Below, piece by piece: positions 1 to 32,075 of a stretch of 64,000 nucleotides of DNA. The DNA comes from Hordeum vulgare subsp. vulgare. Its lineage: Eukaryota; Streptophyta; Magnoliopsida; Poales; Poaceae. A program made the translations under genes and the position numbers. Under the pieces are notes generated by a model that saw only the letters and a list, made by a program, of their open reading frames with translations, had not been told where the DNA came from and did no database searches. Numbering within the stretch: position 1 is the stretch's first letter; every line of letters begins with the position of its first letter. The stretch covers positions 504,977,225-505,041,224 of the forward strand of contig NC_058518.1 in assembly GCF_904849725.1 (NCBI RefSeq), given 5' to 3'.

Positions 1-1
1 T

Positions 2-421: not shown

Positions 422-464
422 ATCACTCCAAAATTCATGTATCATCAGTGGTATCTCGAATCAT

Positions 465-2893
465 TCGAAAATGGACACCAAACACATCACGGGTAATATA
501 ATTCACATGATCCATTCAACAAAGTTTGGTGCAATAAATTATTACACATCATTTCTTCCCTTGTGTCCCTGCTTGCTTACGATTGTGCCGTATCCATGGA
601 GCATCCTCATCATTTAACTTAATGCTTGGGTCGGTGTTCACTTTGAAGGGCGGAATTTCAGCAAACATATTATAATCTTCTGACATGTCTGTCTTGTCCT
701 CCACTCCCACGATGTTTCTTTTCCCTGAAAGAACAATGTGGCGCTTTGGATCATCGCATGATGTACTGATCGTTTTCTTATCTTTCCGTTTCCTCGGTTT
801 GCTACTCATGTCCTTCACATAGAAAACCTGAGCGACATCTTTCGCTAGGACGAATGGTTCGTCAAGGTAACCAAGATTGTTGAAATCCACCATTGTCATT
901 CCGTATTGCTGGTCCACCTTTACTCCACCTCCTGTTAGCTTGAACCATTTGCACCGGAACAAAGGGACCTTAAAGGAGGGTCCATAGTCAAGTTCCCATA
1001 TCTCCTCTATGTAACCATAATATGTGACCTCTTGCCCATTCTCGGTTGCTGCATCAAAGCGGACACCACTGTTTTGGTTGGTGCTCTTTTTATCTTGGGC
1101 GATCGTGTAAAATGTATTCCCATTTATCTCGTACCCTTGGAAAGTCGTTATAGTCGAAGATGGTGTCTTGGCCAACATGTACAGCTGATCTACAACATCA
1201 TTGTCATTCATTAAATGTTTTCTCAACCAACTACCGAAAGTCTCCATGTGGGCCTTCCTAATCCAGGATTCAGGCTTCCCCGGGTTGTCCGAGCGTAAAA
1301 TATTCTTGTGTTTCTCAAAGTACGGAGCCACCAAGATGGAATTGGTCAGTACAGTGTGGTGTGCTTCAGTCAGAGAATGGCCGTCCATACATATCGTTGA
1401 TTTCCTTCCGATCGTGCCTTTTCCACTTAGTCTCCCCTCGTGCCGCGATCGAGGAAGACCAATCGGCTTAAGGTCAGGAACAAAGTCAACACAAAACTCA
1501 ATTACCTCCTCATTTCCATAGCCCTTGGCGATGCTTCCTTCTGGCCTAGCACGGTTACGAACATATTTCTTTAATACTCCCATGAACCTCTCGAAGGGGA
1601 ACATATTGTGTAGAAATACAGGACCGAGAACGAAAATCTCTTCGACTAGGTGAACCAGGAGGTGCGTCATAATATTGAAGAAGGATGGCGGGAACACCAG
1701 CTCGAAACTGACAAGACATTGGATCACATCGTTCTGTAACCGTGGTAGAACTTCTGGATTGATTACCTTCTGAGAGATTGCATTGAGGAATGCACATAGC
1801 TTCACAATGGCTACTCGAACATTTTCCGGCAGGAGCCCCCTCAAAGCAATCGGAAGCAATTGCGTCATAATCACGTGGCAGTCGTGAGACTTCAGGTTTT
1901 GGAACTTTTTCTCCGCCATGTTTATTATTCCCTTTATATTGGACGAGAATCCAGACGGGACCTTCATACTGCTCAGGCATTCAAAAAAGATGACCTTCTC
2001 TTCTTTGGTCAGAGCGTAGCTGGCACGACCTTGAAACCATTCCGGATGCCGGTCATCAGGGTCTTTCAAACGTTGCTGGTCCTGCCGTGCTTCCTTTGTA
2101 TCATTTGTCTTCCCATACACGCCCAAGAAGCTTAGGAGGTTCACGCAAATATTCTTCGTAACGTGCATCACGTCGATTGCAGAGCGGACTTCTAGGACTT
2201 TCCAATATTCTAGCTCCCAGAATATAGATTTCTTCTTCCACATGGCTGCGTGCCCGTCAGCTCCCTTCGGAACTGATTGTCCGCCTGGACCCTTTCCAAA
2301 GATGACTTTCAAATCCTTGACCATATCAAATACCTCAGCACCAGTGCGTTCCGCAGGCTTCGGCCGGTGATCTGCCTTGCCGTTGTAATGCTTGCCTTTC
2401 TTTCTTACTGGATGAATTTTCGGAAGAAATCGACGATGCCCAAGGTACACGTTCTTCTTACAATTTGGCAAATGTACACTTTCAGTCTCATGTAAGCAGT
2501 GCGTGCATGCATTGTATCCCTTATTTGACAGTCCCGAAAGGTTACTAAGAGCAGGCCAATCGTTGATGGTTACGAAAAGCAACGCTCGTAGGTCAAATTC
2601 CTCTTCTTTGTGCTCATCCCACACACGGACACCAGGTCTGCCCCACAGCTGTAAAAGTTCATCAACTAATGGCCTTAGGTACACATCGATGTCGTTGCCG
2701 GGTTGCTTCGGACCTTGGATGAGCACTGGCATCATAATGAACTTCCGCTTCATGCACAACCAAGGAGGAAGGTTGTAGATGCATAGAGTCACGGGCCAGG
2801 TGCTATGGCTGGAGCTCTGCTCGCCAAAAGGATTCATGCCATCTGTACTTAGACCAAATCTTATGTTCCTTGCGTCAGCTGCAAAATCTTTGA
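465..2893 (-). mobile_element. CACTA element fragment (copy 'A'), transposase 3' half only
   Basis: This stretch matches bases 22142-24553 in the left arm (and its mirror in the right arm) with about a dozen substitutions and one 6-base indel. It therefore belongs to the same CACTA family but is a distinct copy. Homology starts at a TCGAAAATGG block at 465 and stops at 2893, inside the transposase frame. No terminal inverted repeat is present at either end. Its orientation is the one expected if it were the continuation of the CACTA whose inner terminus lies at 26156. Confidence 0.8.
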
Positions 2894-3014
2894 TGCAAAG
2901 TCCTTGATATGGCATTGCTGGGATCAGATTATCAGCCACTATCAGGATATCACACCATGGTCCCATCTTGATTTTCTCAATGGAATTAATCAAGACCTTT
3001 TGTGTCTTGGACAT
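549..3014 (-). pseudogene. Truncated TNP2 transposase fused in frame to copia-2 sequence
   Basis: The frame carries the distal part of a CACTA TNP2 transposase: the Transposase_21 region with the STDGMNPF and NDWPAL blocks, then the DUF4218-like and DUF4216-like regions, ending at the normal stop. The N-terminal third is missing. About 40 residues of copia-2 sequence, from an ATG at 3012-3014, replace it across the breakpoint at 2894-2898. The fused frame is open by chance, since both parts happen to be in phase. Relative to the arm copies I see Gly for Ala after ARNIRF, a two-residue insertion after LLQLWG, and a few single changes. It is probably non-functional, as the transposase-associated N-terminal domain is gone. 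Confidence 0.75.
2894..2898. other. Outer rearrangement breakpoint with 5-base filler
   Basis: To the left, bases 2881-2893 match the CACTA transposase (compare 24553-24565). To the right, bases 2899-2910 match the copia-2 sequence that ends the right arm at 50652. The five bases between, TGCAA, match neither parent at that point. This is the look of an end-joined junction. Confidence 0.7.
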
Positions 3015-6000
3015 ATCCGAGGATATTCCTTACACCAACCATTATACCTTTTATTGGGGATTGCACTCTCAATAAATTGCCAAAAAATATAGTGTCAGGC
3101 CTGACTTACTTTGCAATATATATGAGTGCTCCGATGGTACTCATGTCCATTATCACTTCACCATCTCCCATGGACTTGTGTCCCATGTCAAGTATAATAT
3201 GGCCATATGTGTCTCTGATAAGATATATCCATATTGAACGTTTTCAATATTTCCAGATATATAAAGACTGTCATACATTTATTCCTGAGGGATTTTGCTA
3301 AAGCTATAAACTTAGCATCATTTGGTTTGACCCAAATATCCATCTCAAAATGATTGTGTGTATTTAATATGTCTTGTATAGACATTGATGATAAGATCAT
3401 CCACATCAATAATAAGATGTAAATCCAATTCATGATATCTTCATGAATACACATCAACAATCATCAGTATTAGAGTAATCCTTGTCAAGGAGTAACTCAC
3501 TTAGTCGGTTGTACCACACAACTCTCCGACATCTTCAGAGTCATAGGATGACTTCTGAAGCTTCACACATGTTGCGATTTATCATTGGATTCAGAATACT
3601 AAGCCATTTCATGACTTCAATATATATATCCAAACTGAATGATCCATGTGAGTATGTAGCCATTACATACATCAACTCTATGGATTTGTACTGTCAATTC
3701 AGTATCGAAACATAATTCCACTCATACCGAGAAGGTATGCTACATCATAACTGATGTCGGGTCTCTGCGGAAACCCATGTGCTACAAGCCTCGCTTTCTC
3801 ACCACCTCATCTATTTCGTTTGTGAACGAAAAATCACTTCTCTTCACTATGGAAGATACTTATGAGGAGCAGGTTTTACTATGGTAAACACCTCTCTTTT
3901 GATGAGCGAGTGCTACTCTTCTTAATTGCTTCCTTTCATTTGAACCAATATAAGTGTCAACAACACTTTTCATGGATTTTGGTTCAGGGCCCAAAAGGAT
4001 TTCTGCAATTCTCAAGAAGAAATTTATGTCGACATTTGTAGACTTTCAATATATGATTTTCTTGAGTCGATATGATTTGTGGAATTCTCGTTATGCCTCT
4101 TAACTCCTTATGATTTCCCACAACAATGGAGTCAAGGTGTTTCGATGTCCCAGCACCATAAAAATGGGTGCACATCGGTGCTGGGCTATGGATGACGCGC
4201 GTCCATCAGGTGTGTCATTCAACATAAGGTTGAATCACATTTACTGATTGAGGAGACCATTTCCTCTATTTCCGCGAAAACATATGAGAACTTAATCCCA
4301 TGTGACCAGAATTCTCCCCCTCTTGCCCTCATGTGGGGATACGAGTGGTTATTAGGTACCTCCACTCGTTCTGGTACGAAAATTCAGTGACACCTTTTCC
4401 ATCACTAAATGTATATGGCAGATTATTTGCAATATGTTGCAAATTCTCATAATCTGAATCTCTAGTTCAGATTCTCAAGTACGTGGACAAAATGTCTATG
4501 CCATTTCTTTTGCATTTCGTGGCATTCTCTGCGGTACATTTCTCCCCCTAATGCCAGAAAATATCCTCATTGCAAAAGGAATCAGCGTACGAGCTGCAAA
4601 TAACTCCCTCGCTAGGGTTAAGGTATTTGACGGATTAACAATGATACCACAGTTATTCCTCACATAGATCCCAAATATATGTGAAGGCTGTAATGTACAC
4701 TGGGATGGTGATATCGGTGTGCAACCGAATTATCGCAGATGGGAAATACTTCACTGATTTCCACGTACAGACCGTAAGGGGATAGGGTATTAAATGCATT
4801 TGATCTCATTTAGACCAAATATGTGGCATGTGAGTCCGCATGTTACCAACAACAAAATGTTGGATCATCACAATTCTGTAGCAATGGCCATGCAACTTGA
4901 CTCTTTTTGACAAGAGATCTAGCTACACCATTCTGGGTAGGTACACGACGTACTGAATATGACCATGAATTTCTCGTGAATCAAATTCAACGATATTTCC
5001 ATTCCGATGGAATTATCCCATGCATATGCTCCAAACTCGTCAATTTGAGCACTTAATTCAGTAAACACATGGTTTTGTGTGGATTATACACACCTAAGGC
5101 CATCTTCTAGATGTGTCTATGAATACAATGAAGTACCAAAATAACCCAGCCAATGGTTGAATAGTTTGCATCATTCTTGAATCCGTTCAAGAATAATGAG
5201 TGTCCCATTCAAATTTTAAGGTGAGAGTGCCTTAAAATTAATTCCTCTATGGCACATGTAGTGCACATAAATCTTTCGATTGTTAGGAATATTGCAACTT
5301 TGTTGTGGCCAACAGAATTATCAATAATTTTTCTAATCGTCCTCATACCAGACAGGTAAAGGAGGAAAAATTATTGTGTACGCAACAATATTATGTATGA
5401 ATTCTTCATACACTCAGTTCCTCACAGCTATCATGTCCCGTGGACAAGATGTTGCAAATTATACCACCTATAATAGTTCAATTATAGGCTAATGATATAT
5501 TGGGATAACTAGGAGACTACATAAGATCTCCAAAATATCTTGGGAATGTCATTCCACAAGCATATCATTAATGTAGAGGAGTGCATTCTCCTTCTACTGC
5601 ACCAGAATATTTTCTGGTTGTCCATTTGAAGTAGAACTTCAAACTTCTCCCATTTAACTCATTTGCCTTTTCCAATGGGTCGGTGACATGATTCAACCCA
5701 AAACATGGTAGTTTGGTAATCATTAGTACGATATTTCGTACAACCACCTCTTTGAAAAACTTGGGAGTTGTCATTGTGATCATTTATTTAAATGACACAT
5801 TCCTTTGTGAGATATACACTCCATTTCAGCTTGTCTCTTTTTCCACTTTACTTTCAACTCCTAGTGGTTCTCTAACCACATATTTGTTTAGTACTAAAAG
5901 CACTAACACAAATTGAAGGTAATGATATTGCACCCATTGGGGTGTACCAGATGATCTTCACAAGAAGGTCATCATATTTTTACCCTGAAATGAAGATGGT

Positions 6001-9000
6001 ATTTCTTTTACCATCATAGGAGGATGTAAAGTGCAGTAAGGACATACAATCAGATCAAGATCTGAGACTGCCTTATCACGTAATCTCAACTAAGTGTTGA
6101 TTTATAGACAACAAAATTATAAGCATCAATGGGCATGAAGTCCTTAATACAAATGAATACTCATTCGAGTGATGCTTATGAGAACATATCTCTCCTTAAG
6201 GTGGTATCAAAAGGGCAAATGGATATTCATCATCCATTAAATAGTTGGTTTTAGAACCAAGACATTGCGATGTCACATAAATGCAAATTTGCACATTTCA
6301 GGCATTTATAAAATAGCCATGACATTCTGTGCGGGTGGAATTTCTATGGCGACAAGGCCACGGGTCGACAAAATCATTAATGTCAATGACCTATTTTCAA
6401 TAGTTACTTCCACCTTATGTCATCACATCGCATTTCCTTTCGAAAAAGGTCATCCATATATTGCATGAAATGCTCATGCATTAATTTACCTTCAATAAAT
6501 TAAGGACAATGAAAATGCTATGGCTAAGCATAATCATGATCATGGTGATTTTTAGTGACTTATGACGAAGTCCTCACAAGAAGATAATCATCACAATATG
6601 ATGTAGTTCTTCAAATTGAAGGTATGGTAACCTCATAAAGAATAAATCTTTAATTCCCATAAAACACAGAGGTAATCAACCACCTAGTGGTGCCTCACTC
6701 TTATGTATATTTTATTCAATCATAGCCCCTACACAACCTTATGTTATTTAAAACACATGAAGGTAATTACCACGAAGTGGCATAAACCTCTCAGTTGTGC
6801 ATGAAATTTAATTCATTGCTACGACTACATCTCATAAGTTGTGTACTCATCGAAGGTAATCACCAAAATATGCAAGTCTTTTGCATAATTATCTTCATAG
6901 CATAATATGTAGCATATCCGCTACTAATGCCTTGGATTCCTCTCTTGATGGAGCATGTGACACTGTAGTCACAACCAATGACAAATGCTATGAAATTAAC
7001 AAATATTTGGAAAAACATCATGAAGGTAGGCACCAACGGTGTAGGCCTCATAATGATTATGTCAAAAAAATTATGCCTTTAATTTGCTTTGAACACATGG
7101 AGATAATCACTACTGAGTAGTGTATGCCTCATTCTTATGGAGCTTCTCACAACCTTATGTTTTAAAATACATTGAAGATAATCACCACATGGTGGTGTAG
7201 ACCTCGCAGTTGTGAACGAAATTTAATTCGTTGCCACAAAGGCAATCCATAAGTTGTGTGCAAAATTGAAGGTAGTCATTATGTCTAAACGACATAATAT
7301 AGACCTCTCAATAACATTGAGTAATCTGCAATTAAGCAGTAGGTACCATTTATCGATTCCGTGTGACAAATGTAAATTTGACATAACGTGGCAGTGTCAA
7401 ACAGTTCACTACCTCATGTTTTCCAAATTTGCAAGCAAATTCCATATTCTATATGAATAATGGAATTAACATATTGCTTTGCAAAGTATTACTCATGTAA
7501 TACAAATAAATACAAAAGTATTAACATACTTGTGCAATATATATGAGGACTTGGAGCCTCAAACAGTCATTTTACACGATGTAAAATGATGCATAATCAA
7601 CTATTATGCAATTCTGCAAGACCTTGTAGTCTATCATGTATATTTGCTCTGAATGCTCGGGGCATAAAATGCAAATACCAATAACCATATGGTTAAAGTG
7701 CTGAAAAACAGCAAACGAGAGGGCTAAACTACAAGGAGATAGATATCTGATGGCTAAACGATAGCCAAGGAGATAGATATCTCCTTCCCCGTGCGGTTAC
7801 AAATCCTGAAGGGGAATTTCCACTAACTGCCGCCGATGGCCTATAGACCAAGGCCATCTCGACGAATGGTGCCACCTGACGTGTACCAGCCATTTGCCAC
7901 TACCGAGAGGTCGCGACCATGAGCGCCCGCTTCTACACTGGAGCGCATCGATTTACACAACTAACTTCGCATGGTCGCTTTGTCTTGGCGCGGTCATGTC
8001 TAGATGTAGACGCCATTGCGCTGCAACGGAGCCGAGGGTCATGGCTGAAGGACGCCGATGCGAATCCGTTATTGATGCGTACGAGTACCAAGTAGTGTGC
8101 TGCTCTTGATTGCTCCGTGTCAGGCCGTCTTGGTGAAGATCTTCCAGTCCTCTTTTGGAGTGGCACACGCTCAATCCGAGCGATTCATACATGCATCATA
8201 GAAGAATAGAAATTGCACAATACTGATTAGTAGATGTTAACTGTATGAGCAACTTTCTCCTAATCAATTTATCATACATATGCATGCAAGCGGATGAATC
8301 CATGTTTTTGCTGTGGTTGTGCCCCAACCATCGGTTCTTCTTTGCGTGTTCCTGATTCACCGAAGAAATCTTCTTGCTTCATCAGTATGAAAACCCATCA
8401 AATTATGAAATTGGGGTGTTTAATCGCAAGAAGACAAATAAACTAGCATTGTCCTGATTGATTTCCTGTGAGGCAAAAAGGAAATTGCTCTCCGTTCTAG
8501 AAACACACGATCAGTGAGTCGCTGATGCTAATCAGAGAATGAAAATCAAATTGGCCTTCTCCTCATCGATTTCTTCAATGAACGTGCATGCCTTTGCATG
8601 CTTCTCTTTGCCGTAGACGCAATGATGGGTCCTGGGCTGAGCGCCGCTGCAGGGGGGCCATCAGCGTGCCATGCACCGGAGGTTGATCCTTCTTTCATGT
8701 GTGTGCTGATCCGATGAAGAGATTCATGCATGCTATTCACGAAAATACAATTATTAGATTGCTAATCTTAATCATAAAAAAACAAAGGTTAGCGCTTTGT
8801 GATGGATTTCTCTTTATGGATGCATGTCTGTCCTTGACGAGGACGTCCTAATAGCGTCCATTAGCGATCAATTTCCAAGGTCTGTTCTTTGTCTTGGAGG
8901 ACGAGTATTTGCCGGGCTGCGGAGACTCCAGTTCCTTCCTGAATGACTTCTTCTGGTTCATCTCCACGTAGCAATTGATCCATTTCGTCACGCTCATGCG

Positions 9001-9294
9001 CCGCCGTCTTCTGTGGCCGGAGCACAACCTTCACACGTCTCGCGTCTGTGTAACCGCCGTCACGAACTTTCCTTTCTCTAGCCAGCCATAGAGACTATGT
9101 GCTGATAACGTATTGTAGAATGAAAGCAAAGAGACAAATAAAGAGTCTAAATGATCCACTAGTTTCATTGCAATGTGGGACACCCATTTATATACAAGAT
9201 GAAGGGGTGTGTTGGAGAGACACATTTTCTTCAACAGACACCTCCTGGAAGGCATCCCTCCCATACAATTGATCACATGTTTTATTTCTCAACA
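2899..9294 (-). mobile_element. copia-2, left-arm copy, lacking its 3' end
   Basis: This is the mirror image of the complete element at 44257-51488. Its 5' LTR (9111-9294) is intact, but the element stops at the breakpoint at 2899. The last 0.84 kb, including the polypurine tract and 3' LTR, is therefore absent. Coding sequence is heavily decayed: integrase remnants near 4650-4950, the RT box near 3385-3415 and RNase H near 2990-3160. All other sequence here is AT-rich and holds no intact frame. Confidence 0.9.
9111..9294 (-). repeat. 5' LTR of copia-2 (left copy)
   Basis: The LTR is 184 bases. On the minus strand it opens TGTTGAG and closes CTACAATA. It is followed inward by the CGTTATCAGCAC primer-site-like sequence (9099-9110). 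Confidence 0.9.
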
Positions 9295-9639
9295 GGGATG
9301 ACCCGAAGTTTGAGCCGGATTTAAAATGTCATGGTGTAGATGCTCTGGATGCAGACTTTTTGGTGGACCTACAGGGATCAAGATTTGGCCAGAACCAGTT
9401 GTAGATGCTCCAGGGCAACAGAAACGACGGCTCCTTTGGGCGGAGGAGCACTGTTTGCCTGCTGATGCAGCGGTTCTCGTGGCCACTCGCAAGTGCTTCT
9501 ACAGTTCCACAAAAAAGACGGCAGCGAAGTGATGGCTGAATTCGGTCCAGTCCGGTGCCGCCTCGGGCCGGAGCTTCGCATCTCTTCTACTACGTGACTG
9601 GCGGCAGCGCGCCTACAGAACCAGGTTCTGAACCTCGGG

Positions 9640-10383
9640 CTAAAAAAACTCTGACATGTGCAAGAACAGCTCGTCGAGTTGACCCTCGAGCTCCATGTCA
9701 ACCCCGAGGCCTCCACCAGGCGCCGCGTAGCCGTAGCTCCCGGTAAGCTGGCACCAGGAGCTCGCCGGCGAGGAGGGGAAGGAAAACGGAGTCACGGGCT
9801 CTGCCGGCAACTGAACCCCTTCCGGCGCCGCGGCCGGCGGGCTCTGCTGCTCCTGGCCGAAGGCAGCAGGCGGCGGCAGCTGCTGCTCCGTGCCGCCCAG
9901 GACCGCGGCCCCGGCGCAGGTGTGCGCGCCCACGTACACGACGTCGAAGAGCAGCGGGTCGGCCGTCGCGCGCTGCACCTGCTTGGTGGCGGCGCAGCCC
10001 TGCGTGTGCCGGTGCGTGCACCGGAAGTAGGACCTCGGGTACGTGGCGCCGAGGATGCCCTTCTGGCCGTACTTCCTCCAGCTCATCCCGTCGTCGAGTG
10101 GCCCGAGGTCCTGCATTGAGGCCACCCGCACCTGCGTGCGCACCTTCGCCGCTGCCGCCTTCCTGCCGCTCCTGAGCTGGCCGTTCACGCCCGCCCTGGC
10201 GCCGGCATTGCGGCCACGGCCGGCGAGGCGCACGGCCCGGTCGACGGACGCGGCCAGCGCGGAGCAGAGCTCCCTGGCGGCGCCGGGCGCGCCCTGGTCG
10301 CCGTCGACGCGCGCCTCCAGCTCCCTCGCCATGGCCAGCAGCCCGTCTAGCTCCGTCGCCAGCGTGGCCGCCGCGTCCTCCAT
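9640..10383 (-). CDS. Group III WRKY transcription factor, left copy
   Basis: The protein is identical to the right-arm gene at 43168-43911 (247 residues), transcribed away from the palindrome centre. WRKYGQK is followed by the C-X7-C-X23-H-X-C zinc ligands. The frame can be extended upstream to a GTG at 10410, but the ATG at 10383 is the plausible start. The neighbours are the 3' LTR of copia-1 upstream (10779-11115) and the 5' LTR of copia-2 downstream (9111-9294), so the gene sits alone in a 1.5 kb non-repeat island. Nothing in the coding region is broken, so both copies should be expressible. Confidence 0.92.
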   Translation of the reverse strand: MEDAAATLATELDGLLAMARELEARVDGDQGAPGAARELCSALAASVDRAVRLAGRGRNAGARAGVNGQLRSGRKAAAAKVRTQVRVASMQDLGPLDDGMSWRKYGQKGILGATYPRSYFRCTHRHTQGCAATKQVQRATADPLLFDVVYVGAHTCAGAAVLGGTEQQLPPPAAFGQEQQSPPAAAPEGVQLPAEPVTPFSFPSSPASSWCQLTGSYGYAAPGGGLGVDMELEGQLDELFLHMSEFF

Positions 10384-10553
10384 GCCCGGCCCTCCGTTCA
10401 GCGCACGCACCTAGCTAACCGATCGATCAGTGGCGCCCGACGAGACCGTGAGCGCGCGTGCTTTGCGGGTCTCACTCTCACACTCACTCTTGTGAATTGT
10501 GATGATCGATGATGACTGATGAGCTTGGTAGCGACTGGGGAAGGAGGAGGAAT

Positions 10554-10559
10554 CTTATA
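10554..10559 (-). promoter_or_regulatory. TATA box of left WRKY gene
   Basis: On the minus strand the sequence is TATAAG, about 170 bases before the ATG, followed by a CT/CA-rich leader. A W-box core (TTGAC on one strand) lies about 85 bases further upstream at 10644-10648. Confidence 0.55.
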
Positions 10560-10778
10560 GTGCCAGACCAAGTAGTTAAGCGCTGAGCACTGTTGGTGCC
10601 TTGGTGGCCTGAATCATTGATCTGTAGTTAAGCGAGGTTCCGGTTGACTGAAGACCGGAGAAAAGCTGGAGACTTTGAAATCGAGAAAGAAGAGAAGAAG
10701 ACCAAAACTGTAGTGCACTCGGGCAACCTCTTGTGGCAACAACGACACTGCACCGAACAGTCCAATAAATACTGCTCC

Positions 10779-11115
10779 TGTTACCCCTCAACTCTAGCCG
10801 CCGGACAGGAAAGAATTCAGTTCGCGGGCGGGAGGAGAAGCTGTGATGTTTTGTGAAGCGCATTCACTGCTATTTTTCAGTTCCTCTTTTATTCCTCTGT
10901 TGAACGAAAAAAATCGGATCCAGGCATCTCCTTTTACTGGATCGTGCCATCCCACGATCGGGAGCGCGCGTTTGCCGCTAGCTACAGCCCCGGGAGTGCA
11001 CAGACCGCGTCCTCGGACGCTAACTGAAAAAATAAGTGGCGAAACTGAATCCTAACACTACTTGACCGACTATCAACAACCTGTCGGTCCTGTCATGCTA
11101 TGTTATTAGCTAACA
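10779..11115 (-). repeat. 3' LTR of copia-1 (left copy)
   Basis: The LTR is 337 bases with perfect TGTTA...TAACA ends. The polypurine tract (TTAGGGGGAGAT on the minus strand) abuts it at 11116-11127. Confidence 0.88.
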
Positions 11116-11146
11116 ATCTCCCCCTAAGCTAGACATGACAGAAAGA

Positions 11147-11807
11147 CTAAATTGCGATCATGCCAATGCACGCACGAAGCTCGTGAAACCGCGTGCGTCC
11201 AAAAGACTTTGTGAAAATGTCTGTCAGCTGATTGCCTATGGCGATGTGCTCCACCATGATCTTCCCCTCTTCAACACACCTTCGGGTGAAGGGAAATCGC
11301 ACGTCGATGTGCTTGCTGCGGTCATGGAAAACGGGGTTCCTGCACAGCTGGATGGTGACGGCGGACTTGTTGTCGATGAACATGGTGACGGCGCCGGCGA
11401 CTTCCTTCAGCAGATCACCCAAGAGCTGGCTGAGCCAGATCATCTGGCATGCTGCAGTCGTTGCAGCCACAAATTCTGCTTCACACGAGGACAAGGCGGC
11501 GATCTTCTGCTTCTGTGATTGCCAAGTGATCGGTGCCCCTCCCAGGAAGAAGAGGTTGCCCGAAGTGCTCTTGCGGTAGTCGACGTCGCCGGCCATGTAC
11601 GAGTCGCTGTATCCAATGAGTTTGCCATCGCTTCCCCTGACATACCTGCAGCCGTACTTGCGGGTGCCTGCGATGTAGCGCAGCAGGTGCTTGAGAGCAG
11701 CGAAGTGGGTTGTGGCTGACGCCTCCATGAACCGGCTGACATACCCTACTGCAAAGGTGATGTGAGGCCGCGTGTGGGTGAGGTAGCGAAGCCCGCCGAT
11801 GAGGGTG
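11147..11807 (-). pseudogene. copia-1 RNase H, left copy
   Basis: Same sequence as 41744-42404. It holds a copia RNase H domain with the YSDSYMAGD, SSCEAEF and HIDVRFPF blocks, ending at a natural stop. It is cut off from its reverse transcriptase by the solo LTR. Confidence 0.9.
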
Positions 11808-13480: not shown

Positions 13481-13485
13481 GGGTG

Positions 13486-14378: not shown

Positions 14379-14760
14379 GCTTTCACACGGCTGGGGTGTC
14401 CTGCTCGGTCCGCCGAGGAGGTCCGCTAGATGGCGGAAGCAGTGGCCAGTCGGCGTCGAAGATATCGGGTCATGTCGTCGGTGGCGTGACGAACTCCACT
14501 CCCCTCGGGGCCTTGCCCGGGGGTGTTCTGCTGCTGGATGCCCTCACGGAGGACGTAGACGTGCCGGACCGCGGCATAGCTAGAGGTTCAGCCCTGGCGG
14601 TGCTCGTGAGCGTGGCTGGAGAGGCCGCCGAGGTGTCATCGTTGTCTTCCTGGAGCTTGCTCGCGTTGTCCGTCATGGCGGGCACCTCCCGCCCTCTGAT
14701 GGCTGGCGCAAGCTCGTGGTGAGTGACGAGCGTCTCGGCTGCAGACTTGTCAGTGGCGCC

Positions 14761-15893
14761 CTAGTCCCATCTAGCCCTCTCGTCGAACACCACATCGCGC
14801 GACGTGTATACCCACTTGGTTAGCAGATCGTACATCATGTATGCGTTTAAGTCCGCTTCGTAGCCGATGATGACCATCTTCGTGTTGTGGTCGTCGAGCT
14901 TCTTTAGCCCTGGGCGCGTGTTCTTGACGTACGCGATGCAGCCGGAGACACGCAAGTAGTGCACGGCGGGCTTCTTGTCGTACCACAGGTCATATGGAGT
15001 CTTGTCGTCGATGTTGCGCGTGTAGATCCTATTGAGGATGAAGACTGCGGTTGCCACGGCCTCCCCCCCAAAACCATCTCGGCATGTTCTTGGCCTTGAG
15101 CATGCTTCTAGCCAAGCCGACGATGGTCTGGTTGCGTCGCTCCACCATGCCGTTCTGATATGGCGAGTAGGGTGCCCTATATACGCCTTGGTCCGCAAAG
15201 TACTCGCCGAGCACGTTGGAGGTCAACTCACCGCCCCGGTCAGTCCAGAACCTGCGCAGGCGCGCCCCCTGCTCTGCTTCGGTCGCGGCGATGAAGTGCT
15301 TCATGTTGGTCGCGGTTGCGTCCTTGGTGGGCAGCATCATGGCCCACATGTAACAGAGATGGTCGTCGACGGCGATCATGAAGTAGCGCTTCCCGTCGGG
15401 GGTTGCCGGAGTGATTGGCCCGCACAGGTCGGCGTAGACGAGCTCGGGTGCCCCCGTCGCGAGGTAGCGCGCCTGTGAAGGAAATTGTGGGCGCCATTGC
15501 TTCCCCACGAACCAGTGGCATCCCGCACACCATGTGTGCGCGACCCATGCGCCGGAGTGCGTCGAAGTGTTGATGGCCGAACCTGGCGTGCCATTTCCAT
15601 GCCTCGTCACCTCCATTTGCTGCCAGACATACAGGATGCGAGATGTCCAGACGAACTACGTAGAGGTGCTTGCCATTATGGCATACCTGAGCCAACTCAT
15701 GCTCGCAGCGATCGTACAACGTCAGGACCCTTCCGTGAATCTTGGTGGTGCAGTCGTGCTCGTCCAACTACCCGAGGCTGATGATGCTTGTCTTGAGGCA
15801 CGAGATGAAGTAGATGTCGGTGAGTGCTTGTCGATCGTAGCTGCATACGGTGAAGGTGATTGTGTCACGCCCGTGGATGGCCACGCTGGAGCC
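14761..15893 (-). pseudogene. copia-1 integrase, left copy (frameshifted)
   Basis: Mirror of 37658-38790. The GAG-pre-integrase region and integrase core lie in three successive frames. The breaks match the right copy exactly, so the damage predates the duplication. Confidence 0.88.
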
Positions 15894-16111
15894 ATCCACT
15901 GGTGGAAAAAAGGCCTTTGGTCGCGGTTCGCAACTGCCATTAGTCGCGGTTGCGCAACCGCGACCAACTAAGTGCGACTAAAGCCCCCCACCTTTAGTCG
16001 CGGTTTCTTAAGAACCGCGACTAAAGGCCCGTCCACGTGGGCGCCAGGCGGCCGTCGGGGCGGAGGACCTTTAGTCGCGGTTCTTATGGACAACCGCGAC
16101 TAAAGGCCGCC

Positions 16112-16150
16112 ACAGGTTTAGGGCGCGCGCGCGCCCCCCCCTAAACCTGT
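16112..16150. repeat. GC-rich inverted repeat near CACTA outer end (left)
   Basis: Twelve-base arms, ACAGGTTTAGGG and its complement, flank an alternating GC/poly-C core just inside the outer subterminal repeats. It mirrors 37401-37439. Confidence 0.8.
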
Positions 16151-16364
16151 TTTCTGTTTAATTTGTATTGTTTTATTTCTTTTGTGCTTTATTTTAATTT
16201 TGAAGGAATTTCATATATTCTACGGTACTACATACATGCATATGAATGTACAATTTCAAACAAATTTGAAATTAGAACCAAAAAGAATTCAAGAGGAATA
16301 TACAATATATATTCAATATCATCGGATGACCATATACAATTTTGAACAAGTTTCCATACATAAT

Positions 16365-19300
16365 TTAATGCATATAAAGTTCTACGTCCTCGTAATGGTG
16401 TTCTCCTTTAGGATGGAGGACTTCCCTGCTGAACCATCCAGCTAGTTCCTCTTGAAGTGGTCGGAAGCGAGCTTCTGGACTAAGCATCATCCGGAGGTTA
16501 TTCCTCTGAGCATTGGTATCACTCAGAACCCGCTCAGAGGTGTATCTCCGGATCATCTCACAGACATAGTATCCACATAGATTGGTCCCCGCTGGCTGAA
16601 TATCCCCACCATTCTTAGGCTTTGACCTTTTGAATTCTAGCTCTTTTTTGAATTCACCAACCTTTGTATCTACGAACCGTCTCCAAACCCTACGAGGCAA
16701 AGAAAATTAAATGAACAAGAGAGTTATTAGTTACTTGATATTAGGAAATGAACGAAATAGGCCGATCGATATAGAGCGCAAATGAATGAAAATAATTACT
16801 TCTGCAGCATTCTTCTCATGCCGCCCCAAAGCTTTGGATCCATATTCAGAGAGTCGTGGACGAGACATTCTGAGGTGTTAACTTTAATTACTAGCAGAAT
16901 CCAGTGGAACCTGCGGACACGATACATGCACAGTACGTCATGCATAACTCATCGATTAGCCGGCCACATACCATGCATGGAGTAAACAAAAGAGAATGTG
17001 CTCAAGACAGAAACACTCACCCAAAATGGTAAGGAAATAGAATATCACTTTTGAGTTCCTGCTTTGTAAGAAACTGCCACAGGTCTGCCTCCATGTCGGC
17101 GGGGTGATGCTCCAACACATGTCCATTAACGATGTGTGGGTCAATGAACCCAACATCATGGATGTTCCTTACTCTGCATTCCTTAATCTTCATTCTGCAT
17201 GTATAATAGCGGACACAACAATATAGTTAGGACATATATATAGTGCAGGCAATATGAACGAGATGGGGTAGAAATAAATCACTTACAGAACGTAGCAACT
17301 GATGATAGATTTGTCGAGATCGCGCAGATTGAAAAGCTGGAACAATTCACTCAGTTCAATTTGTACATAGTAATGTTTGAAGTGATGCTCATGTCTAACT
17401 TCCGCATAAATATAATCTTTGGCGTTTTTATTTTTTATGTAACCCTTGTACCATTTCAGCAGACCTTTCATTTGTGGAGGTAGATCCTTTTCCTGCGCAG
17501 GCTCGACGAGAGGCCCATTCTTGACATATGTAATTACTACCTCCTTCACTGGCGCCTCATCAAGGCCTAACAGTTCACGAAGAGTAATACCTAAGTTGGC
17601 CGCTTGTTCTCTGGCACTCGTTGCAGTCAATCCCTGTGCTGCCGCAGCTTGTATGATCTCGGGGGCATCCGGACCGGCGGCTTCCACTATAAGCGGGGCA
17701 ATCGATTGTTTACTTTGTTCCCCGAGCTGGGCAACTTGTTTCCCGCTTTTTTTACTTTCGGCCTTCTCCCGCTCTTTGTTCTCCTTGAACATGAGTGCCT
17801 GCCTGCGAAGTTCACGTGCATAGTCGTCAGGCAGATTCTTCGCGGCTTGGGACAGTGTGCTCAAAAATGACTTAGCCCACTTCTTTTGCTCATCAGAAAA
17901 TACTGGCTTGGGCTCGGGCTCTCTTTTCTTCTTGCAGTCCGCCTTCCATTTCTCCAAATCAGCAGCCGCGGCCGCGTCGACTTCCTCGGCACTACGTTCC
18001 CAAGGCCTTGTGGGGAGAGGCTTCAGTGATGGCTCCGGTACCTTTGTGGTCTTAGGTACATAAGGGTCCGGGTTAATAATCCAGGACTGCTTCTGCTTCT
18101 GCTTCTTTGCCGGAGGTGGATTGGGGGGCGGCGTCTGATCACCCGCCGGACGAGGACTGGGGGGCGGCGTCTGATCACCCGCCGAACGTTGTGGACTGGG
18201 GGGCGTCGGCTGACGTGACGGAGGTGTAGGTGAACCGCCACCACCACCACCACCACCACCACCGCCACCGCCACCACCACCATCGTAGGGGGGTGGACTT
18301 GTTGTCCTTGGCGCCTCGCCTGGAAACTTGATAAACTTCTTTTGCCATAGAATGAAATGGCGCTTGACATCTCCAAGTCTTTTCTCCCCTTCAGGTGTAG
18401 CAATGTCAATCTCCAGGTCCTCAAACCCTTGGACTATGTCCTCCACCGTGACACGAGCATAGCCATCTTGAATGGGGTTGTTGTGGTGGAGTGCTCCAGG
18501 TAAACATGGTAAAGCACTGCCGATGGCTACCTTCATGGACATGTTCCCGATAGGATAATACAGATGACATTCTTTCATCTCCTTTATATCGTCCACGGGG
18601 TAGCGAGGAGGCTCCGGTGCAGTAATTTCGACCACCAGAGGCTCCGGTGCAGTAATTTCGACCACCAGAGGCTCCGGTGCATTAATTTCGATCGTCGGTG
18701 CATCTGCACCAGCCGGTGGGGCCTCCGTGGAAGCCACGCTGCTTCTCCGCTGCTGGCTTCCGAGATCCGCTGGATGATCTTCATGCTGCACCCGAGCTGC
18801 ATCTCTTTCGGCTACTAGTACACTCATGGTTTTCTTCATCACATCCATTTCCGATGCCAACCGCGCCACAACATCTGCTTCCCGATCCATCTTTCTCTTA
18901 CGGCTTCTGTAACCGTACGGGTCATCGTTCTGGGGGAACCCTATTTTCCACGGAATGTGCCCCATGCCTCGTACACGTCCTCCGTGTTCAGGATTCCCGA
19001 GGGCTTTTGTCAGCGCGTCGTTCTCTCTGTTGAACTTGATCTTCCCCTCTTGAGCATCCCTCATTGCGTCAATAAGGGCTTGGGTGGGTTTAATTAATTT
19101 GCCCCGGTAAACACACTCCCCTGTCTCCGGGTTCAGCGTTCCCCCATGCCCGTACCACCAGCTTTTGGCCCTTGGGTCCCATCCCTCCGTACCTGGACGG
19201 ATTCCTCGCGCCCTCAGCTCGTTCTCCATCTTCTCCAACCTAGGCAACAAAATGCGATACCCTCCTGGCCCCATAATATGATTGTACTCCTTCTTAGCCG

Positions 19301-20204
19301 CATTTTCCTTATTTTTTTTCGATATTTGAATGAACTGCTCCGATTTCTTTTGCTTCACAAATTCTGGCCAATCATGTTTCAGTTTCTCATATTGTCCTTT
19401 GAAATCCGGAGTCTTGTTCTGCTTGACAAAGTCATGGGCTAGATTTTGCTTGAATTTCCGGAATGCGTCGGCCATCTTATGAAGAGCGAACTGTTTGACT
19501 AGCCTCCTCCTCTCCTTGTTTTCCTCAATCTTGTTACCCTCCTCATCGAATTTGTTGTATTCCGGAGGTAGAACGAAATGTTCCATAAGCTTCTTGAAGC
19601 AATCTTTTTTTGTTCTCTTATCGACAAAAGTGAAACCTGCAGCAATTCGTGCCTTCTTTGGCTCATTCCACTCCTGGACGGTGATCGAGACGTTGTCTCT
19701 AACAACGGCTCCGCATTGGCTGACAAACTTGGTGGCGTTCTTGCGGGGCTCCAGCGGCCTGCCGGTTGCACTGTCGACAACCTCGATGGTGCATGTTTCT
19801 CCTTGTTTCATCGTCTTGGTTGCGCCACGCTTTGACGACGTACTCGATTGTTTCGACGATCCGGCCGAGGGCTAAAATAAGAAAGAGAGTCGCGCGCGTT
19901 AGTACACACATATTTATTCAAATTAGTTAGTTTGTATCACCAGAGGCTCAATGTATATATATACCTCGGCGCCGGAGGTGGTTGCTACTTCCATTTGAAG
20001 ATCGTCGTTTATCGACGTTTGTTCGGCATCATCTTGCTGACGGCGCCCTTCATCTTCACCGTCAAGGTTCAGATAAGAAGAGATATCATCTTCTTCTTCT
20101 CCGGTCGGCACATATAGAATATCGCCGTTTATGATGCCGAACATATGTGCTTCACCGTCCGGATCATAGTTGTCCATAATCGGGTCAGCTCTATCGTCCG
20201 CCAT
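16365..20204 (-). CDS. CACTA TNPA-like protein with Ulp1/C48 protease domain, left copy
   Basis: Five exons on the minus strand: 20204-19965, 19871-17287, 17194-17021, 16910-16800 and 16689-16365. All introns are GT-AG and join in phase to about 1144 residues. The sequence appears identical to the right-arm gene (33347-37186), where domains are described. Being intact in both arms, it contrasts with the stop-containing transposase beside it. Confidence 0.8.
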
Positions 20205-22225
20205 TATGTCAGTCCTGAAAACATGTAGTAAAAACAAATTAATTAAGTGAAGAAGGGGGGCGGTGGCGGTGGCGGTGGCGAAAGGGCGGTGGCAAAAGGA
20301 GGGGGCGAGGAAGGGGTGGGAGAGGGTGTCGCGGTAGAGCGCGAGACGGGGCGCTCTTTGTTCTTTATTTCTTTATTTCTTTATCTTTGTTCTTTGTTCT
20401 TGCATAGTCTTCCCGACGGCTGTGGCTGAATATCCGACACATGAAAAAGTTTTAACTAGAGTTTTTGACCGTGAACCTGCTGCTTCAGCTTTGCACTGGC
20501 CGACCGCCGATTCGCTGGTTCATTTGCTAGTTTTTAATCATAAAAGAAAATACTTTCTTTGTTCCTAAATAATTGTAGTTAAAAAAACTAGACTATCTTT
20601 TTTTGACTATAATTATTTAAAAACGGAGGGAGTAAATATTATGTAAGTATCTCATTATTAAAAGAGGAGTTGGTTCCGTTGCCTCTCCTACTCCCTTTGT
20701 TTTTTCGTCCCATGACTCCCTCTCTTCTTGGTTTTCTGTTGATTTTTTGATACTCACAATTGATCCCACACATAATTTAAACTACACAAATAAAGTAACT
20801 TGAAATAATCTAAAAGATAATTGATACATTCCCAAAATCATGTCCTGCAATAACTCAACCAAAATAGATAGTCTTAAACTCAACCAAAAATGGTGAACTT
20901 TTCCAAATTCGCTAATTTTTTTCAATTTAGATTGATTAATTATTTAAATTGATGATTTTTTAACTCGATGATCTTTTTTATATTCGATGAAACTTTTTCA
21001 TATTTGATAGTCTCTGTTCTTTTTCATATTCGATGAAACTTTTTATATTCGATGAAACTTTTAAATAGATAGTCTCTGTTCTTTTTCTTCCAAGACGAAC
21101 TACCCACGGGACGTCGGGATGAGATGTTCGTTCTTGATTTCTGCGAGCCCTGTCGGCATCGATGGGCGCGGGGACGAGGGCGGCTATGAGCGCAGCGACG
21201 AGCGCAATGCTTCGAGCGGAGGGGGCAGTAGGCGGCGACAGGAAGCGAGGAAGGCGGGCGCGGCGCGGGAAAGATGAAAGGATAGGGGTGAACCCTTTAG
21301 TCGCGGGCGAGGGCGACGGCGGGCGGCGACGAGGGCGAGGGCGACGGCGGGCGGCGTCGACGAGGGCGAGGGCGACGGCGGCGGCAGGCCTTCGGCGCGT
21401 GCGGCAGAGAATCGGAGAAGACGAGAGAGATGGAGAAGACGGCGGCAGGGGAGGCGACCCGCACTTGTATTTATAGCCCCCCCCTTTAGTCGCGGTTGGG
21501 GAGGCGACCCGCGACTAAAGGGTACCTTTAGTCGCGGGTCGCCTCCCCAACCGCGACTAAAGGGTTTTTGGCGGGTTTTTTGCGTTCCCGCGCCCCCCCC
21601 TTTAGTCGCGGTTGGGGAGGCGACCCGCGACTAAAGGGTAACCTTTAGTCGCGGTTTGCCAGACCAACCGCGACTAAAGGCCCCCCCCAAATCTTCTTTT
21701 ATTTTCAGAACCTTTTATCTTTTTCTTTTCAGAAAAATCATCATTGCTTTTATAGAAACTTCAAACATTTTATTTTCTGTTTTCTAAGCATATTTTCGTA
21801 GGAAAAATATGCATAGAGACAATACATTGAATCTGCCTAAAACGGGACAGAAAAAAGAGAATCCATTTAAAGGGAACATTGGCCACAGCCTCTCTCCCCC
21901 CCGGCCTGGGCCGGCCTTCGGCCTCGACCCATCTTGCTCACGCCAGCCTGGTGCGGTGGCTGTGATGCCCCGCTGAGAGGCCTCTCGCCCGAGCCGTGAG
22001 CGCGCCGCCCCTTTCTTCTCCTATCCGCCCGCTGAGAGGTCGTTTTTGCGTTCCCCGCGCGCAACGACCTTTAGTCGCGGTTGGTCTGGCCTTTAGTCCC
22101 GGTTGCACCAACCAGCCGGGACTAAAGGTTAGATGACCAGCTCGAAAATGGACACCAAACACATCACGGGTAATATAATTCACATGATCCATTCAACAAA
22201 GTTTGGTACAATAAATTATTACACA
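20205..22225 (-). promoter_or_regulatory. CACTA internal region: leader, promoter and repeat cluster (left)
   Basis: This is the non-coding gap between the two CACTA genes. It holds a 5' leader with a probable intron, a TATA box (21468-21475) and TTTAGTCGCGG palindrome clusters (21484-21680 and 22069-22128). It is the mirror of 31326-33346. I see no gene in it. Confidence 0.6.
21484..21680. repeat. Internal cluster of subterminal-type palindromes (left)
   Basis: Several copies of CCTTTAGTCGCGGTT face their complements, forming hairpins with GGGGAGGCGACC-type loops. The same motif is found at the element's termini. Confidence 0.8.
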
Positions 22226-25200
22226 TCATTTCTTCCCTTGTGTCCCTGCTTGCTTACGATTGTGCCGTATCCATGGAGCATCCTCATCATTTAACTTAAT
22301 GCTTGGGTCGGTGTTCACTTTGAAGGGCGGAATTTCAGCAAACATATTATAATCTTCTGACATGTCTGTCTTGTCCTCCACTCCCACGATGTTTCTTTTC
22401 CCTGAAAGAACAATGTGGCGCTTTGGATCATCGCATGATGTACTGATCGTTTTCTTATCTTTCCGTTTCCTCGGTTTGCTACTCATGTCCTTCACATAGA
22501 AAACCTGAGCGACATCTTTCGCTAGGACGAATGGTTCGTCAAGGTAACCAAGATTGTTGAAATCCACCATTGTCATTCCGTATTGCTGGTCCACCTTTAC
22601 CCCACCTCCTGTTAGCTTGAACCATTTGCACCGGAACAAAGGGACCTTAAAGGAGGGTCCATAGTCAAGTTCCCATATCTCCTCTATGTAACCATAATAT
22701 GTGACCTCTTGCCCATTCTCGGTTGCTGCATCAAAGCGGACACCACTGTTTTGGTTGGTGCTCTTTTTATCTTGGGCGATCGTGTAAAATGTATTCCCAT
22801 TTATCTCGTACCCTTGGAAAGTCGTTATAGTCGAAGATGGTGTCTTGGCCAACATGTACAGCTGATCTACAACATCATTGTCATTCATTAAATGTTTTCT
22901 CAACCAACTGCCGAAAGTCTCCATGTGGGCCTTCCTAATCCAGGATTCAGGCTTCCCCGGGTTGTCAGAGCGTAAAATATTCTTGTGTTTCTCAAAGTAC
23001 GGAGCCACCAAGCTGGAATTGGTCAGTACAGTGTGGTGTGCTTCAGTCAGAGAATGGCCGTCCATACATATCGTTGATTTCCTTCCGATCGTGCCTTTTC
23101 CACTTAGTCTCCCCTCGTGCCGCGATCGAGGAAGACCAATCGGCTTAAGGTCAGGAACAAAGTCAACACAAAACTCAATTACCTCCTCATTTCCATAGCC
23201 CTTGGCGATGCTTCCTTCTGGCCTAGCACGGTTACGAACATATTTCTTTAATACTCCCATGAACCTCTCGAAGGGGAACATATTGTGTAGAAATACAGGA
23301 CCGAGAACGAAAATCTCTTCGACTAGGTGAACCAGGAGGTGCGTCATAATATTGAAGAAGGATGGCGGGAACACCAGCTCGAAACTGACAAGACATTGGA
23401 TCACATCGTTCTGTAACCGTGGTAGAACTTCTGGATTGATTACCTTCTGAGAGATTGCATTGAGGAATGCACATAGCTTCACAATGGCTACTCGAACATT
23501 TTCCGGCAGGAGCCCCCTCAAAGCAATCGGAAGCAATTGCGTCATAATCACGTGGCAGTCGTGAGACTTCAGGTTTTGGAACTTTTTCTCCGCCATGTTT
23601 ATTATTCCCTTTATATTGGACGAGAATCCAGACGGGACCTTCATACTGCTCAGGCATTCAAAAAAGATGACCTTCTCTTCTTTGGTCAGAGCGTAGCTGG
23701 CACGACCTTGAAACCATTCCGGATGCCGGTCATCAGGGTCTTTCAAACGTTGCTGGTCCTGCCGTGCTTCCTTTGTATCATTTGTCTTCCCATACACGCC
23801 CAAGAAGCTTAGGAGGTTCACGCAAATATTCTTCGTAACGTGCATCACGTCGATTGCAGAGCGGACATCTAGGACTTTCCAATATTCTAGCTCCCAGAAT
23901 ATAGATTTCTTTTTCCACATGGCTGCGTGCCCGTCAGCTCCCTTCGGAACTGATTGTCCGCCAGGACCCTTTCCAAAGATGACTTTCAAATCCTTGACCA
24001 TATCAAATACCTCAGCACCAGTGCGTTCCGCAGGCTTCGGCCGGTGATCTGCCTTGCCGTTGTAATGCTTGCCTTTCTTTCTTACTGGATGAATTTTCGA
24101 AAGAAATCGACGATGCCCAAGGTACACGTTCTTCTTACAATTTGGCAAATGTACACTTTCAGTCTCATGTAAGCAGTGCGTGCATGCATTGTATCCCTTA
24201 TTTGACAGTCCCGAAAGGTTACTAAGAGCAGGCCAATCGTTGATGGTTACGAAAAGCAACGCTCGTAGGTCAAATTCCTCTTGTTTGTGCTCATCCCACA
24301 CACGGACACCACCCCACAGCTGTAAAAGTTCATCAACTAATGGCCTTAGGTACACATCGATGTCGTTGCCGGGTTGCTTCGGACCTTGGATGAGCACTGG
24401 CATCATAATGAACTTCCGCTTCATGCACAACCAAGGAGGAAGGTTGTAGATGCATAGAGTCACGGGCCAGGTGCTATGGCTGGAGCTCTGCTCGCCAAAA
24501 GGATTCATGCCATCCGTACTTAGAGCAAATCTTATGTTCCTTGCGTCAGCTGCAAAATCTTTGAACCATCTGTCGATCTTTCTCCATTGCGTTCCATCTG
24601 CGGTGTGTCTCAACTCCCCGTCCGACTTACGGTCCTCTTTGTGCCATCGCAACAACTTGGCATGCTCTTTGTTCCTGAACAGACGTTTCAACCGTGGTAT
24701 TATAGGAGCATACCACATCACCTTGGCGGGAACCCTCTTCCTGGGTTTCTAGCCCTCAACATCGTCACCAGGGTCATCGCCTCTGATCTTATAACGCAAT
24801 GCAGTGCATACCGGGCATTCATTCAAATTCTCGTATTCACCGCGGTAGAGGATGCAGTCGTTGATGCATGCATGTATCTTCAGAACCTCTAAACCTAGAG
24901 GGCAGACAACCTTCTTTGCTTCGTACGTACTGGTGGGCAACTCGTTATCCTTTGGAAACATATTCTTCAACATTTTCAGCAAGTTTTCAAATGCCGAGTC
25001 AGCTACACCTGCCTCTGCCTTCCATTTCAGCAAATCCAGTGTGCAGCCCAGCTTTTTCAGACCATCATCGCATCCGGGGTACAGCGCCTTTCTGTGATCC
25101 TCTAACATGCGATCCAAATTCTCCCTCTCCTTTTCAGTTTCGCAGCGTCTCCGTGCATCAGCAATGGTCCGACCAAGATCATCAACGGGATCATCACGTG

Positions 25201-25564
25201 CCTCTTCTTCACCTTCACCTTCCCCTTCACCTTCCCCTTCACCTTCAGCATCCTCCATGAAAGTATCACCGAAATGAGCAAGATAGCTTTCATCCATGAA
25301 ATCATCCCCTTCTTCATCTTCTTCCATTATAACCCCTCTTTCTCCATGCTTGGTCCAACAATTATAGCTTCGCATGAAACCGTGCCGAAGCAGGTGCAGG
25401 TGAACTTCTCTTGAGGAAGAGTAACCCTTCTGATTCTTACAGTCAACACATGGACAGATAACAAAACCCTTCTGCTTGTTCGCATTAGCCACTACGAGGA
25501 AATCTTTCAAACCCGTAGTGAACTCGCGGGAGAGTCGGTTACCGTACATCCATTGCCGATTCAT
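22226..25564 (-). pseudogene. CACTA TNP2 transposase, left copy, one in-frame stop
   Basis: It reads from an ATG at 25564 to a stop at 22226 and is broken by a single TAG at 24749-24751, the same stop as in the right arm. The first 120 or so codons differ from the right copy at nine residues, and it has six extra Glu-Gly residues. The rest is identical apart from one Ala/Val change at 23377. The mosaic pattern marks the switch from A-type to B-type sequence. Confidence 0.85.
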
Positions 25565-25923
25565 CTGCATTATTATAATATAAAATATATAATTAACCAT
25601 CATGCATTTGTTAAACTAACTAGCTATAAACAATAGAAATTAAACAATGAACAACACACATGCATATTTTATCAATGACACACATGCATGAAAGGTTCAA
25701 GTTGCTAACCGCGATCGAGGAGGAAAAAATAAATGAGGAACCTCAAGTGTGGCTCCAACACTTCATATCATGTTTGTTTCACGCTCTTGGGGCATTTCAT
25801 CAAACACCTTGTGTGCATAAGAGGAACCAAAAGCAAACCTACACCCCCTTGTGAAGCTTGTGAAGAGAAGTGGCACCAAATGGCTAAGTGAGTGTGCTGA
25901 ACTGGTATCTATAGGGGAGGAGA

Positions 25924-26156
25924 TTTAGTCGCGGTTGGCATGGCAAACCGCGACTAAAGGCCTTTGGGCACCTTTAGTCGCGGTTGGCCCAACCGCGACT
26001 AAAGCCCCTCACGTGCACCAGCTGGCCACCGAGCGCCCTGGCCCAGGCCTTTGGTCGCGGTTCGTCTGCCGAACCGCGACTAAAGAAATCATTAGTCGCG
26101 GTTCCTACAGTGTCGCGACTTATGGGGCTGGACGGAAGCCTCTTTTTCTACCAGTG
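25924..26156 (-). repeat. Inner TIR and subterminal repeats of left CACTA
   Basis: Four TTTAGTCGCGG-type palindromes are followed by the terminal CACTGGTAGAAAAAGAGGC (on the minus strand, ending at 26156). Compared with 27409-27650, a GGCC/GGCCTGG difference and a CGCGG/CGCCG change are visible. Confidence 0.85.
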
Positions 26157-26211
26157 TCTCGTCGGTGAACTAAATTATTTCCTCTCCGGCGGCTAGAGTT
26201 TAGGGGTAACA
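26157..26211 (+). repeat. Remnant of copia-1 5' LTR (55 bases)
   Basis: It aligns with the last 55 bases of the 3' LTR at 42436-42772, sharing CCGGCGGCTAGAGTT and GGGGTAACA, with scattered differences. It begins exactly where the left CACTA terminus ends. The rest of this LTR is missing, so the left CACTA's inner end probably marks an insertion into it. Confidence 0.8.
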
Positions 26212-26213
26212 AT

Positions 26214-26225
26214 TGGCATCAGACT
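26214..26225 (+). other. Primer binding site of copia-1
   Basis: TGGCATCAGACT starts two bases after the LTR end and resembles the initiator-Met tRNA primer site TGGTATCAGAGC used by plant copia elements. Confidence 0.7.
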
Positions 26226-26236
26226 CGAGTTAGGAT

Positions 26237-32068: not shown

Positions 32069-32075
32069 GGGGGGC

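Follow-up and report, generated by a model that had tools for sequence, protein, structure and literature searches.

The closest described counterparts of the locus reported here are the human DUP-TRP/INV-DUP rearrangements at MECP2 and PLP1, in which BIR within inverted low-copy repeats leads to junction 1, and MMBIR or end joining, with microhomology and templated insertions, leads to junction 2, according to the available portion of PMC4352052, among whose references one title terms BIR inaccurate. In plants, the patch repair of double-strand breaks by SDSA with filler DNA is established (Wicker et al. 2010, as cited), and the accessible text of further reports describes templated break repair in grasses, sometimes with a gene carried along, in rice (PMC4423477), in wheat (PMC3445842) and in barley copy-number variation (PMC3706897), the fillers at rice excision sites measuring 1-123 bp (PMC4423477). 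In a wheat comparison, large indels are traced to unequal crossing over and to the repair of breaks (PMC6097286, in extract), and a review of the Triticeae names fork switching and MMBIR for duplications, with CACTA elements unmentioned in its available part (PMC13393857). Among the matches listed in a literature search by title, which left many journals outside, no inverted gene duplication templated by a pair of transposons was found in a plant. The barley case described below is a variant of known templated repair, for which precedents exist.

The window, that is, the whole stretch of DNA analysed, comprises 64,000 nucleotides of Hordeum vulgare (C1:504977225-505041224), taken from an assembly of 4.21 Gb in 180 contigs. 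By self-comparison, positions 2899-26156 are the reverse complement of 50652-27409 at 99.8% over 23,262 columns, and such 23-kb arms are beyond the reach of chance. Between both arms lie 1,252 unduplicated bp (26157-27408). Base by base, the left arm (2899-25206) and the right arm (28345-50652) show 2 mismatches in 22,308 bp, at 4066/49485 and 23377/30174, and the comparison of 25207-26156 with 27409-28345 gives 20 substitutions, one 18-bp and one 4-bp indel. Positions 465-2893 match 22142-24564 directly (99.26%) and 31409-28987 in reverse (99.22%), with 12 substitutions relative to the left-arm copy, 13 relative to the right-arm copy, and a 6-bp indel; positions 1-464 have no other match within the window, and scans for Rfam families and tRNAs returned 0 and 0 matches. 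The features are as follows, e being the element coordinate.

1-2893, minus strand: CACTA A, outer part; 465-2893 collinear with CACTA B e4000-e1578; carries the tnp2 transposase.
2894-2898: filler TGCAA, 5 bases matching neither flank.
2899-25206, minus strand: left arm, an inverted copy of 28345-50652 inserted within CACTA A.
2899-9294, minus strand: truncated copy of copia-2, lacking its last 836 bp.
9643-10410, minus strand: duplicated copy of the WRKY gene, identical to the right-arm gene.
15897-25206, minus strand: copy of CACTA B from ~e937 to the distal terminus, GAT duplication kept (GCCATC/CACTGG).
25191-25217: switch interval, e926-e953, ~27 bp; the sequence to its right is A-type, that to its left B-type.
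25207-26156, minus strand: CACTA A, inner end, closing in terminus CTACCAGTG, followed by TCT at 26157-26159.
26157-27408, plus strand: spacer, with the end of the copia-1 5' LTR (to ~26211), a primer-binding-like site (our reading) and a gag-like ORF.
27409-37654, plus strand: CACTA B, inserted within copia-1; termini CACTGGTAGAAA and TTTCCACCAGTG both present, GAT/GAT duplication.
37655-42772, plus strand: remainder of copia-1, with an SH3-like polymerase domain, reverse transcriptase, an RNase-H-like frame and the 3' LTR.
43144-43911, plus strand: original copy of the WRKY gene, one open frame.
44257-51488, plus strand: copia-2, a complete LTR element flanked by ATCCC, its 184-bp LTRs being 95% identical to each other.

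CACTA (En/Spm) elements are recognised by CACT(A/G) termini, a 3-bp target duplication and a tnp2 transposase. All of these were found for A and B, which have CACTGGTAGAAA / CACTGGTGGAAA termini, duplications of GAT (B) and TCT (A), and Pfam Transposase_21 matches at 552-3029 and 22229-24748. In the neighbouring genome sequence, CACTA A extends to the left beyond the window as far as coordinate -6331 (CACTGGTGGAAAAAG), with TCT directly before it; TCT is thus the 3-bp duplication at both ends of an element that runs from -6331 to 26156 and now measures 32,488 bp, including 22,313 bp inserted. Between -6331 and -1927, it shares 95.4% identity with the distal part of CACTA B. Omitting CACTA A and one TCT restores the 5' LTR of copia-1 (CTCCTCTCGTCGGTGAAC, vs CTCCTCCCGCCCGCGAAC in the 3' LTR), and 263 of 335 aligned bases are alike in the restored 5' LTR and the 3' LTR. 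Because they share this pair of termini, have TCT on both sides and rejoin the copia-1 LTR when removed, 465-2893 and 25207-26156 are pieces of one CACTA A, and with them both sides of what would be the original break are recovered. The inner piece (e1-~936) and the outer piece (e~1578-4000) have the same orientation in element coordinates. The original prediction had held that the two are co-oriented, meet within ~650 bases of the same point in the element and represent one CACTA split by 22.3 kb; about 625-650 bp are indeed missing between them, and the TCT flanks and the rejoined LTR bear out the single, split element. The ORF at 2-418, inside CACTA A, belongs to a high-copy family for which 79 clusters were found, the best of them comprising 136 and 23 members; one match of this family is named Hordeum vulgare.

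The relationship of the two pieces to other barley copies leads to the same reading. The genome was searched with the A-outer and B-outer sequences, and 40 of 5,375 and 40 of 5,372 loose candidates, respectively, were scored, the window itself accounting for one of the scored matches in the former search and two in the latter. The copies compared were the first 20 of 39 other A-like ones and 20 of 38 other B-like ones, some rows of the latter list being skipped, and all 40 span the inner, middle and outer regions. Inner and outer verdicts were concordant in 40/40: the inner end is closer to A than to B in 20/20 A-like copies, and closer to B in 20/20 B-like copies. In unrooted DNA trees built with these 40 genomic copies, as had been predicted of the two pieces, CACTA A groups with the A-like copies both by its inner end (support 99) and by its outer piece (support 99). 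The inner tree also sets CACTA A and B together against the B-like copies (support 100), because the inner end of B is itself partly A-type. A and B differ more in the inner region (20/930) than in the outer one (12/2,423; Fisher p 7e-5), which subfamily structure largely explains, because CACTA A differs from its A-like relatives by 1-5 positions of about 932 inside in 19 of 20 cases (15 of 884 in the other, L035) and by 6-10 of 2,429 outside in all 20. The possibility that the two pieces of CACTA A derive from different elements is therefore ruled out by the TCT flanks, the rejoined LTR, the 40/40 concordance and the trees.

Protein trees agree weakly with one split A. In these, A-inner groups with P0129, P0131, P0134, P0135 and P0136 (66), A-outer with P0129, P0131, P0134 and P0135, plus P0124 and P0213 (61), and CACTA B with P0128 (79 and 88). 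By protein distance, the two regions agree in 9 of the 11 closest relatives that have both, with P0130 discordant and P0124 tied; of the remoter relatives, P0213, P0217 and P0136 are discordant, P0226 is concordant and P0138 tied. Close relatives of the transposase (P0124, P0146) also occur in metagenome protein sets, P0124 having 273 members and lying on a short contig, and a further entry among the relatives bears the name Proteus mirabilis; these microbial-set relatives are probably plant DNA in microbial data. When contigs of viruses and prokaryotes were scanned for the transposase, 2 and 18 stretches, respectively, fitted a pattern, and 0 were confirmed. In the genome, B-like CACTAs were also seen in same-orientation pairs, at C5:985488/1021413 (36 kb), C5:1231705/1267645 (36 kb) and C7:630144378/630174302 (30 kb), perhaps as a result of recent tandem duplications.

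Sites that distinguish the two subfamilies locate the passage from A to B. Along the left arm, e508-926 is A-type at 13/13 informative sites, and the sequence beyond e926 is B-type at 13/14, the 14th being a third base common to the left arm and B; the A-outer piece is A-type at 7/8 informative sites and B-type at one. The switch is bounded by an 18-bp A-type insert at ~e926 and by e953. Junction 1 is thus a change from one homologue to the other within homologous DNA, as expected of templated repair. CACTA B is itself chimeric at its inner end (27409-28345), being A-type at 44/45 informative sites in e1-478 and B-type at 13/13 in e508-926. Over e1-507 it differs from CACTA A at e57, by a cluster of 5 substitutions at e216-224 and by 4 bp that are deleted in A; the exchange that made B chimeric accordingly looks older than the big duplication. 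An in-frame TAG at 28800-28802 splits the transposase of CACTA B; the same stop is present in the left-arm copy and therefore predates the duplication.

Both CACTAs are nested in copia-1, A in its 5' LTR and B in its coding region, 1,252 bp apart and mutually inverted. That B lies inside one copia element follows from the gag-like ORF in the spacer (PF14223, E 3.3e-5, weaker than the curated cut-off) and from the SH3-like and reverse-transcriptase domains beyond CACTA B, for which the Pfam matches were made on the identical left-arm frames; the RNase-H-like frame is our reading, without a Pfam match. The 3' LTR of copia-1 occupies 42435-42772, its last 45 bp being 91% identical to the start of the spacer, and 5' LTR sequence lies at -6594 to -6357, 81% identical to the 3' LTR. 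As for copia-2, none of its listed open frames at 44257-51488 exceeds 110 aa, and "copia" is the label given to it by the original prediction. A small element with 160-bp direct repeats (97%) and no clear target duplication occupies 60366-62144, nested in an older copia-2 relative of opposite orientation (~58876-62764).

The direction of copying can also be read from this arrangement. Copia-2 is complete, with its target duplication, in the right arm only, and the copy in the left arm stops at the point matching 50652. The WRKY block is present in two copies at 100% identity and in opposite orientations, and its genes, at C1:505020358 (right arm, plus) and C1:504986846 (left arm, minus), are identical. 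Three WRKY paralogues 76-82% alike lie on the plus strand at C1 504949940, 504967549 and 505044825, in a cluster spanning C1:504949940-505045594, which makes the left-arm gene the sole reversed member of five on C1. The truncation of copia-2 in the left arm and the reversal of the WRKY gene there mean that copying ran from the right arm to the left, and rule out the left arm as the original. The idea that the one-frame WRKY gene is a recent retrocopy was likewise rejected, since each of its three diverged neighbours aligns with it as a single stretch (770-796 of 796 bases); large introns seem absent from each of these paralogues. The donor was left intact, with CACTA B and copia-2 complete in the right arm and flanked by their target duplications, again as expected of templated repair.

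Junction 2 is of a different nature, as it joins CACTA A at ~e1578 to the middle of copia-2 non-homologously, with the filler between partners that have no obvious common stretch at the join, which is also in keeping with templated repair. TGCAAA recurs 14 bp upstream, at 2880, and random 5-base fillers reach such a nearby recurrence in ~5% of trials, so that templating of the filler from this motif is suggestive. At position 30174, the A of the right arm stands against a G in the left arm, in A-outer and in both subfamilies; the right-arm base is therefore derived and the change postdates copying. At substitution rates of 1.3e-8 and 6.5e-9 per site and year, the 2 differences between the arms correspond to 3.4 thousand years (0.4-12.5) and 6.9 thousand years (0.8-24.9), respectively, and gene conversion between the arms could be hiding a greater age. 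Because the arms differ so little (~0.4-12.5 thousand years at 1.3e-8), barley accessions with the unbroken state may survive.

We consider it highly likely that the locus arose by long-tract homology-directed repair of the BIR/SDSA type from the inverted transposon, followed by end joining. In the proposed sequence of events, copia-1 would have inserted beside the WRKY gene, and CACTA A and CACTA B would then have entered its 5' LTR and its coding region, respectively, in mutually inverted orientation. After a double-strand break, or a one-ended fork break, inside CACTA A, the 3' end on the inner side, carrying A sequence up to ~e926-952, would have invaded the homologous stretch of inverted CACTA B, at a distance of 1.25 kb, either on its own chromatid or on the sister. 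Synthesis would have proceeded outward for 22.3 kb, taking in the remainder of B and of copia-1, the WRKY gene and most of copia-2, before the new end came free and was ligated to the opposite side of that break, at ~e1578 of A, with the loss of ~625-650 bp and a 5-base, possibly templated filler. The outcome would be a whole gene duplicated in inverted orientation inside a split transposon. The split A, the original nested locus, the ~27-bp A-to-B switch, the direction of copying and the non-homologous second junction can each be read from the sequence itself; from these we infer that break, strand invasion, long-tract BIR/SDSA-type synthesis and end joining took place as one event. The original prediction, a break in A, copying outward from inverted B and end joining, is supported by the switch, by copia-2 and by the filler, and the notion of a transposon-templated gene duplication by the complete, identical WRKY copy inside CACTA A. 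Among the points that count against the repair model are the larger A-B difference in the inner region, the joint position of A and B in the inner tree, the one B-type site of 8 in A-outer, the merely suggestive template of the filler and the lack of a mutation excess in the copied tract, although a tract with 2 differences, one of them derived in the donor arm, says little on such an excess.

Sequence alone fits BIR, a very long SDSA and fork template switching, and the last of these, as FoSTeS/MMBIR, is the foremost alternative. After a fork stalled in A, the nascent strand could have taken inverted B as its template for 22.3 kb and then returned to A, with no two-ended break, and the same product would be expected; in the available text, such models are used for the human inverted-repeat cases (PMC4352052) and given for duplications in repeats by the Triticeae review (PMC13393857). 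We nevertheless regard this as unlikely, given that junction 1 used long homology and that junction 2 has 5 inserted bases between partners without an obvious common stretch. An assembly artefact, in which reads across the near-identical inverted CACTAs were mis-joined, is very improbable. Such 22.3-kb arms with 2 differences, read from one assembly, are indeed prone to assembler error, and the centre between them can flip; however, junction 2 joins unrelated sequences with a filler, unlike a repeat-induced misjoin, one of the arm differences is a derived change on one side, and the product fits a two-ended break, including the matching TCT flanks 32 kb apart. If A and inverted B had crossed over between sister chromatids, giving a palindromic dicentric/acentric chromatid that was later broken and healed, the A/B switch and a long inverted copy would also result, but this route needs an accidental rejoining to A, in the right orientation and within ~650 bp of the crossover, and the finding that A is a single element flanked by TCT speaks further against it, so that we give it even less credence. 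Reversed-ends transposition acts at transposon termini. The least credible explanation, an alternative CACTA transposition of this type that made the inverted duplication, would find two CACTA ends facing each other 1.25 kb apart, and its Ac version makes direct duplications in maize (PMC3744419, in extract), but the junctions, at e926-953 and at e1578/mid copia-2, do not fall at a CACTA terminus.

Gene movement in cereals has been ascribed to templated repair (PMC4423477, PMC3445842, PMC3706897), but in our view the reason for the template is seldom visible. Under the repair model, one can read here the earlier locus, how the template was chosen, where the switch took place, in which direction copying ran and how the last join was made, for a complete duplicated gene. 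It is tempting to speculate, although we think it rather doubtful, that young high-copy CACTAs in close inverted pairs are recurrent templates for long break-induced copying, and that orientation, not transposase, decides which neighbouring genes of a fast-evolving cluster, such as the WRKY genes, are reverse-duplicated; the rule is testable, as reverse duplications should be flanked by inverted young transposons. Compared with the human DUP-TRP/INV-DUP cases, as far as the available text describes them, the same two-step model applies and junction 1 falls in inverted repeats in barley too. The repeats are, however, two CACTA transposons in a plant, junction 2 leads back into the broken element on its far side, the block is duplicated, not triplicated with flanking duplicated blocks, and the earlier locus is readable. 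As in plant patch repair, a break would have been mended by copying DNA from elsewhere, a gene included, but here the choice of template is explained by the homology of two inverted CACTAs, and 22.3 kb were copied. The locus also resembles the reversed-ends duplications of maize Ac, so far as they are described in the available text (PMC3744419), in that specially oriented DNA transposons duplicate neighbouring DNA, and it departs from them in that the barley junctions are never at a transposon terminus.
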